DNA of 64,000 nucleotides, taken from contig NC_090290.1 in NCBI RefSeq assembly GCF_037392515.1, positions 1,913,478 to 1,977,477 of the forward strand, read 5' to 3'. Under the pieces are notes generated by a model, which saw nothing but the letters and a program-made list of their open reading frames with translations, was not told where the DNA came from and did not search any database. A program made the translations under genes and the position numbers. Positions within the stretch are counted from its first letter, which is position 1. Each line of letters opens with the position of its first letter. The DNA is from Haliotis asinina (Eukaryota; Mollusca; Gastropoda; Lepetellida; Haliotidae). This document shows positions 36,501 through 42,128 of the stretch, piece after piece.

Positions 36501-39500
36501 ATCACATTTACTCAATTGACTACAAATCTGGGAGTCCAAAAACTGCATAAGAATCAGTTAAAACCCAATAGGTCTATAATACCTTGTGCACATTACTCAA
36601 TTAACTAAACTGGCTTGCGTATGATTTGTTGTGGTGCCAAAACTCTACAACAGCATTAGCTAACGGTAGGCGCTGCCCATATATACACGTATATACTATT
36701 GTAGCTGTAGCCACTGTCTGGACTTTAATAGTCTTCCATGTTGAGTATTTAAAAATGGCTGCCACATGTTTGGCAATATGACAATTACTAAGAGCATTTA
36801 GTCTAAAAGTACTCAATTATGCACTTTTCTGATTAAGATTGTTATTTTCTACTTATCTTGACTCATGCTTATTATGCTTGTCTCCTTCTTCTATCCAAAC
36901 ATAGTTCAAAATTCCATAGGTGTCTGTAATGATAATGGAATAAACAGGCGCTTGAATTTCTTTCTTCTTGTCTTTGTCCATTACAGGTAGATTTACACAA
37001 GGATAAACTTGCATGTCACTTGAACCAAGTTCTGTGGACAGTGCTGGGATGAAAAATTGTCTGTCAGGCTGTCCAGACAGCTGATTCTTGGCAATAAAAT
37101 CCCATCTGAGTCCAAGGTGTACACTGTCACGATGTGCTGGTTTCTCGACCATGTTCACACATAGTCCAGGGTATGTGTTTTTGACATCCAGACAGCTGTT
37201 GCTAGGGCAACCAAAAATAGCATTTTCTCGGATAACAGGTACATGGATGTTCGAGCTTGTGGACCTTAAGCGTTGCTTACGAGATGTTGTAGTACTATGT
37301 TGAGATGCTATGCAGGAGCCTTGAATTCCTTTGTTGATCTTCCAACTCAAATGAAAGTAGTAAAGCTAGTAGTTCTGGTACTTCAGGCAACTTTATGCCA
37401 GTTTTCATAGTGATGACTGTACTAAGTGCCACTAAGTAAGTTGATAACATAGAGCCTGTTAAATGACACAAGTAGTTAGCCACTTGAGCATGAGGCGCTT
37501 TACTTGCAGTGAAGCCCTTCTGCTTTGCACACGACTTGAATCTCTTTCAGTTTCACGTATCATCGTATAGTGATCGAGTAGACGTTTGTAAGGCAAATGT
37601 GACAACCTTCGCCGCTCTGTCAGAATATCCTCATTTTTTCAAACAAGCTTTACTAAAGTCCATACATGTAGCTGGAATGCAGACGGATTTCCGAGAGTTT
37701 GCTTGGTATTGTTGATGAAGTAGGAGACTCGGTTTATCAGGTAGTTTTAAGGTAGGATTTCTTAGGTCTTGTTGTAGGTCCGGAAACCCTCACTGGATAG
37801 TAGATGCTTGATTTTCTGTAATTCTTCAAGCAGTAGTACTGGAGGCAGAAATGCTACGTGTTGAGTCCCTCCCATGGTATGTTGAGAGTGTCTGTAGCCG
37901 AGTTTTGTGGATACGGTATTGGAGCCATGGAGGAGAGAGTGACAAGCATGACTGGTCAGGTGACAGATTTGCGCACCAATGCATTGGCTAAAGGGAGGCC
38001 ACTCATGGGTGAGTGCTAATTTTATGTCCTCTTCAGTGAAGAGCTTCAAAGGATTCCACTATGTTCGGATAGAAGGTGACAAGCATAATAATTATGAGTC
38101 TGTATAAGGAAAAATCTAGAAACTAGTGGGAGCATACAAAATGCAAGTTTTTCCTCAAAAAATACAATTACTCATATTGATACGATATTAACAGAAATGG
38201 GAGTAAATAGCCATTGCTTGAAAACTTTTCTGGAAATCTGGTCAGTATAGACAAACTGAACATTCTCTCTCAAACCACCAGACATTTTCAGATATGTGAC
38301 TTTCTGTTATAGATTCACGTGTCTTCTTAAGTGTTCCAACCACGAGTAGTCCAAACAGTGGAAATCATGACATGTTTCTCTGGATACCATTGAATATCCT
38401 ATTCACATTATATATAAATTCTTTCCACACTGTAATTATTGCACCAAAGAGTTGTGTATTTAAAAACAGCATTAAGAATGTTTATCATGTTATGTCAACT
38501 TGGGCTTGGAAATTCCCACATAAGTTGCATCTTAATTTGGGGAGATACAACACTTTCCCAGCCCCGAAGTTAGTCATGTGATAAATTGCTCAGCGACAAC
38601 AGTAACACTGCACAGACACACAACTGGGAGCTAATGTTTGCAGATGTTTTCTGACTGTGCATGCATTCTTCCTGATTTCTACATGCATGTTTCAACAACG
38701 AGAAAGCTTCATTGAACTTCAGTGAATGCATGATCAGATTGCTTGACAAGTTGTACGTTGTTTATCTATATAGTTTCTGCAAGGGCTGTTATAAAATATT
38801 ACCTACTCTTACAATAGTGACATTATGTACCCAACACCAATTGAAAGTACCAAAGCTGGATCAGGAAACACAGAGTCGCATATCTGGTAGGGCTCGGCGA
38901 TAACACGTGTTAACCGGAATATTGCAGTTCCAACTTCTCAATACGATGTATTGCAGTCCAATTTTTTCATGAACCGATTCAGAGGATACAATTGGCAATT
39001 TCCGTGACCATGAATGGTATTTTGTGATGAAGTAAAACAAAACCTTCGAACATTTGAATTTCCTTTACATTATTACACATTAATAGATTAAACCGCATAA
39101 ATAAAACAAAATCGAATTGGTAGCAACACTCCTTGTAAGGGATAAATAAATCAAAATGGCAGACGCTGCTGCAGAGTTATATCTAACTAGGGAAGTCTCC
39201 AGTTTGTAAACATTTTGAATTGATCTCTTGTCTTATCATATGCCTAGCCTGCTGTCACTCTGCTATAATATCTGGATGTATCGAATGCCAGGCCGGCTGT
39301 CACTCTGCAATAATCACTTATAATACCTGGACTTATCCCATGCCTGGCCTGCTGTAACTCTACTATAATACCTGGACTTATCACATGCCTGGCCTGCTGT
39401 CCCCCTACTATAATACCTGGACTTATCACATGCCTGGCCTGCTGTAACTCTACTATAATACCTGGACTTATCACATGCCTGGCCTGCTGTAACTCTACTA

Positions 39501-42128: not shown

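Follow-up and report, generated by a model that had tools for sequence, protein, structure and literature searches.

Tandem duplications that resemble minisatellites and span exon/intron boundaries are described as mirages in amphioxus, where two reports cover Adh3, the globins BflGb6 and BflGb9, troponin C and PGBD5 (PMC3087553, PMC3902484). Their units measure 10-160 bp, AG/GT signals are found in many but not all copies, and cluster ends escape homogenisation (PMC3087553). Regular splicing is undisturbed in RT-PCR data for Adh3 and the globins (PMC3087553; also PMC3902484). Mirages are further characterised by length polymorphism and somatic instability.

A related arrangement is given for intron 7 of human F7 (factor VII), i.e., 37-bp repeats of variable number with the true donor located in the first one, together with an oriented scanning that normally leaves only the most upstream donor in use (PMC6627357). 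Duplicates also bring extra splice signals in intron gain by tandem genomic duplication, known as the Rogers model and linked to AGGT proto-splice sites (PMC3087553; see also PMC4974935, PMC3443670).

Here, we compare these systems with a 45-bp array in the gamma-tubulin gene of Haliotis asinina. The analysis covers a stretch of 64,000 nucleotides, referred to as the window. Table 1 lists the main features.

The gamma-tubulin gene and the array at exon 2

Based on tblastn with human gamma-tubulin, the gene comprises 12 exons on the minus strand, from 42128 to about 19234. The respective gene model has 11 introns, all of them GT-AG, and its predicted protein is collinear with human gamma-tubulin up to WGTRQ, which agrees with the identity assigned in a preliminary description of the locus. 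The 24 residues that follow WGTRQ in the model are probably intron, since a donor-like CAG/GTAGGC is found directly after WGTRQ.

Exon 2 is the second shortest of the 12 exons (51 nt; exon 1 counts 49 from its ATG). Its acceptor ttccag/TCGG puts the exon start at 40772, as was implied by the interval end of the preliminary description, and its donor is CAG/GTATTA (40722/40721). Exon 3 (from 36403) supplies the AG of a conserved E such that exons 2 and 3 jointly read ...HGISP-E-GILEEY. Because this join restores the conserved E, protein homology identifies 40722/40721 as the true donor; homology and gene model thus both place the exon end at 40722, where it had been proposed. The adjoining intron 2 has 4318 bp, and the array is located in its first third.

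TRF reports the array at 39232-40738 with 33.3 copies and 93% matches. Each unit opens at a donor GT and closes with the copied end of exon 2. When cut in 45-base steps from 40721 to 39327, the array yields 31 units without indel, i.e., the regularity claimed before (no indels over 31 periods) is exact; 17/31 units equal the consensus while 14/31 show 1-4 differences. The junction pattern CATGNGATAAGTCCAGGTATTATAG (at most 3 mismatches) has 32 matches in the window, namely exon 2 plus the 31 extra donor copies that had been described. All of them are inside the array, and 0 matches are observed in 100 shuffles. On the other hand, the low end of 39241 does not hold as part of the regular array, since the 45-base register is lost past 39327 (a 55-bp step, then decay).

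The exonic part of each unit is the last 17 nt of exon 2. We rejected a homology that extends further, into the intronic portion of the unit (GAAAGCAG in comparison to GGAAGCAG), since shuffles equal it in 5-40% depending on the unit; since this match is within chance, the shared exonic part was set at 17 nt. The exon's GGG is retained in 3/31 units (5, 26, 31), while the remaining 28 read TGT... at this place, i.e., carry a single T for G. Most unit variation is located within a 9-base stretch that takes three forms (A in 20 units, B in 5, C in 6), for which we find no higher-order arrangement (13 equal neighbours vs. 13.9 expected, no lag prominent). Exon 2 codes HGISP, identical in human gamma-tubulin, which suggests that the array was copied from the exon and not the reverse. 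The earlier proposal of an origin by tandem duplication of the exon-intron junction is supported.

An exact 20-mer of the junction has no match in viral_contigs, as expected, and Rfam and tRNA scans of the whole window gave no matches. A stop-free frame of 504 aa runs at 39314-40828 (+), i.e., on the strand opposite to the gamma-tubulin gene. A coding reading of the array was rejected: 3/6 frames are open in its consensus, and the stop-free frames of 504 aa (plus) and 496 aa (minus) are a by-product of the 45-bp period.

Table 1. Coordinates of the boundary arrays and associated exons (positions within the window)
Feature	Position	Strand	Basis
Gamma-tubulin exon 2, 51 nt, phase 1	40722..40772	-	tblastn with human gamma-tubulin, in-frame gene model
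31 units of 45 bp, strict spacing	39327..40721	-	TRF, fixed-step cutting, pattern search, donor scores
Decayed distal array end (final copy of the donor at 39326, followed by a 55-bp step and divergent units)	39232..39326	-	TRF, sequence
Gamma-tubulin exon 3, splice partner of exon 2	36342..36403	-	gene model
Gamma-tubulin exon 10, donor CAG/GTGAGT (20714/20713), phase 0	20714..20872	-	tblastn, gene model
Donor array at exon 10, junction repeated seven more times with about 30 bp per copy	20487..20713	-	TRF, sequence, donor list, unit check
Two-copy 98-bp tandem duplication of exon end and donor, 82% matches	52815..53006	-	TRF, sequence, alignment

With regard to the donors themselves, all 31 extra sites (40676 to 39326) have GT and share one phase, as had been stated. 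The complete 9-mer of the exon 2 donor is found in 29/31, the exceptions being 40406 (GTG) and 39596 (CAA/GT). These two also make up 2/3 of the single-unit substitutions in the array, and no conservation of the copied donors is visible there. The preliminary description had further assumed an in-frame TGA from the first unit. Unit 1 indeed holds one, so that splicing at any of the 31 extra donors would lead to a stop in frame, but TGA itself is found in only 5/31 units (1, 3, 4, 5, 22).

Donor strength was scored with a human matrix and by pairing to the U1 5' end. By this matrix, the exon 2 donor is the lowest of the 11 donors (3.94) and is outscored by 12 other GT sites of intron 2; its U1 pairing energy (-7.2 kcal/mol) ranks 7th among the 11, with donors 1, 7, 9, and 11 being weaker. 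Given the lowest matrix score, donor strength does not make it evident that the first site would be selected efficiently. RNA folding of exon 2 plus first units is ordinary (z -0.53), and a special RNA structure was rejected.

Boundary duplications beyond exon 2

The array at exon 10, which is absent from the preliminary description and has stronger donors than that at exon 2, offers further donors at 20683 (GTAAGT), at 20657, 20597, and 20561 (GTGAGT), at 20627 (GTCAGT), and at 20531 and 20501 (GTTAGT). It includes 18 exonic bases, the splice signal is present in 7/7 copies, and with 72-75% matches (TRF) it is far more diverged than the 45-bp array. In terms of the human matrix, donor 20683 (CAG/GTAAGT) reaches 12.70 vs. 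12.58 for the true exon 10 donor (both values being the scores of the identical 9-mers at gene donors 4 and 10). Splicing there would insert ten residues and keep the frame open; the remaining six extra donors would cause a frameshift and run into stops. The donor columns of this array vary less than the others (0.063 vs. 0.171), which is not beyond chance (p-value of 0.068 from random columns); the p-value is 0.076 when a broken eighth copy, which overlaps the seventh by its first four bases, is included. Donor conservation in the exon 10 array is thus suggestive only.

Elsewhere in the window, the true donor of the 98-bp duplication (52917/52916) reads GAG/GTATGT, while copy two reads GAG/ATATAT, i.e., the donor is lost. 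The duplicated exon, when joined to the next one, shows a weak Cpn60_TCP1 match (E 0.0013; 17.9 bits vs. a cut-off of 34.3) and a match to ancestral group II chaperonin (E 0.011), such that the gene is putatively chaperonin-like (TCP-1/cpn60 family).

Two similar 25-bp arrays are seen in the neighbourhood of this duplication. The one at 51843-52073 (-), with about nine units, ends 12 bases ahead of the acceptor (51831) of the next putative chaperonin-like exon; the other is located at 52538-52651. Between both, an inverted repeat with about 36 bases per arm (52086-52190) is visible by eye. We rejected the former array as an acceptor duplication, since the adjoining acceptor is not inside the array (best 16/30).

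Additional repeats of the window include a 28-bp unit in four copies (35584-35696, minus strand) within a transposase-like reading frame, which has a weak DUF659 match (25.6 bits vs. a cut-off of 34.7), and five perfect 21-bp repeats (57639-57738, minus strand) coding a repeated TDCTTER within an open frame of 751 aa, for which no Pfam match was found. On the plus strand, 6002-13609 holds two long, similar open frames, the second in pieces, that by eye look like endonuclease and reverse transcriptase of a non-LTR retrotransposon.

Whether arrays coincide with exon ends more often than by chance depends on the measure. In a junction scan (30-base windows; a nearby copy requires 23/30 or better), 2/11 gamma-tubulin donors and 0/11 acceptors have a nearby copy; the 98-bp duplication is below this threshold (best 21/30). 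Among control positions of the gene, 82/999 have such a copy, nearly all inside the three arrays. Given this rate, two or more of 11 donors are expected with a probability of about 0.23, i.e., the observed 2/11 is unremarkable by coverage.

Considering array edges instead, the upstream edge of 2/3 TRF arrays within the gene is located in an exon, 17-18 bases from its end. When arrays were placed at random, two or more such edges resulted in 0.24% of trials, in 0.93% when acceptors are counted too, and in 0.17% if no array was allowed more than 60 exonic bases so as to keep arrays out of exons, where numbers are small and the 60-base margin of the test was picked after seeing the data. The second array at exon 10 and the two-copy duplication elsewhere show that boundary duplication recurs.

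Origin of the donor row and its effect on splicing

We consider it probable that the 45-bp array is a mirage-type minisatellite that was seeded by junction duplication and is silent via choice of the first donor. Its origin would be a tandem duplication across the junction, with 17 bases from the end of exon 2 and 28 from the start of intron 2. Slippage or unequal exchange would then have caused growth to 31 regular units as well as their homogenisation, while far-end units decayed. Such a row of equivalent donors would be tolerated if the splicing machinery settles on the one furthest upstream. The chosen donor would be the one nearest to the 3' splice site of the 51-nt exon, which results in the normal message and leaves the intronic copies idle. 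Nonsense-mediated decay is the fate of transcripts with a premature stop, and rare use of a later donor would, via TGA, send the transcript there. From the analogy to described systems, we infer such a choice of the first donor, as the preliminary description did, along with decay of mis-spliced transcripts; most likely, only the first splice site of the array would be used.

Alternatively, later donors could be used at a real rate. Each would add n x 45 nt with TGA in the first unit. The array would then act as a poison extension and, by way of nonsense-mediated decay, reduce the amount of gamma-tubulin to a degree set by copy number. Such use would fit the true 9-mer in 29/31 extra donors, the stop that follows from all 31, and the weak matrix score of the true donor, and at exon 10 the extra donor 20683 even scores slightly above the true one while adding ten residues without stop. 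Still, we regard it as unlikely, given that normal splicing is described as undisturbed both for the mirages in print and for F7 intron 7. Furthermore, there is no sign that the copies are maintained, because 2/3 of the single-unit changes fall in donors and RNA folding is ordinary. A more far-reaching variant, which we consider very unlikely, would make the genome's donor junctions preferred minisatellite seeds and the gamma-tubulin array a copy-number dial. That is, a strict 5'-to-3' choice would hide 31 equal donors, and slippage past the first site would produce TGA-bearing messages that tune the level of this essential centrosome protein between individuals or tissues.

Selection might also retain the donor row, which would then serve U1 snRNP as a landing field and make up for the weakness of the donor and the shortness of the exon, with the first site being used. 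Exon 2 is indeed second shortest of the 12 exons and its donor lowest of 11 by matrix, but the array at exon 10 adjoins a donor that is among the strongest (12.58), and donors 1, 7, 9, and 11 are weaker than donor 2 by U1 energy, yet are without array. The lower variation of the exon 10 donor columns is within chance as well, and we deem such a landing field very unlikely. That the copy number of the array is an assembly artefact has hardly any probability in our view. Assembly is difficult for long arrays whose units are nearly identical, and PMC3087553 reports one mirage that was aberrantly assembled in a draft genome. Against this, the array combines three unit types and single changes without a higher-order period and has a decayed distal end, while the exon 10 array (72-75% matches) is too diverged for stutter. 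The existence of the array is safe; the number 31 is not.

The array offers a strong test of oriented scanning to the most upstream donor, as it presents a row of 32 equivalent, same-phase donors in an essential gene, where each later donor, if used, would be seen as an additional step of 45 nt. A counter-test is provided by exon 10, where the second donor equals or exceeds the true one in strength and would, if used, keep the frame open. Three boundary duplications within 64 kb are also informative on the beginnings of such minisatellites.

Comparison with known systems

Work on F7 is reportedly due to Borensztajn (2006) and that on Adh3 to Canestro (2002). Human F7 intron 7 has far fewer repeat copies than 31. 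As in F7, the true donor of the gamma-tubulin array (40722/40721) is the first of its row. Both differ in the consequence of later donors: extensions by 37 bp are out of frame, while those by 45 bp are in frame with a stop. Furthermore, the two minisatellites are of independent origin, and the F7 donor may not be as weak as that of gamma-tubulin exon 2. With regard to the intron gain model, the difference is that an existing intron was lengthened here, while no new exon or intron is shown.

The closest likeness is to mirages, a published class that the preliminary description does not mention. In the published descriptions, they share with the gamma-tubulin array the tandem duplication across the boundary, intronic splice signals, a homogenised interior with a divergent end, and the presence in several genes. 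Here, the arrays span the exon/intron boundary with 17 (exon 2) and 18 (exon 10) exonic bases. Splice signals are kept in 31/31 and 7/7 copies, respectively, while the copy of the 98-bp duplication has lost its signal. In the 45-bp array, 17/31 units are identical and decay sets in past 39327. The same descriptions give 2-7 copies for globins and PGBD5, compared to 31 in gamma-tubulin, and allow for mirages at either boundary, while only donor boundaries are affected here; unlike mirages, the gamma-tubulin gene has two arrays. Judged by its sequence, the gamma-tubulin array is a member of the described mirage class, i.e., it is real and striking, but not new in kind.
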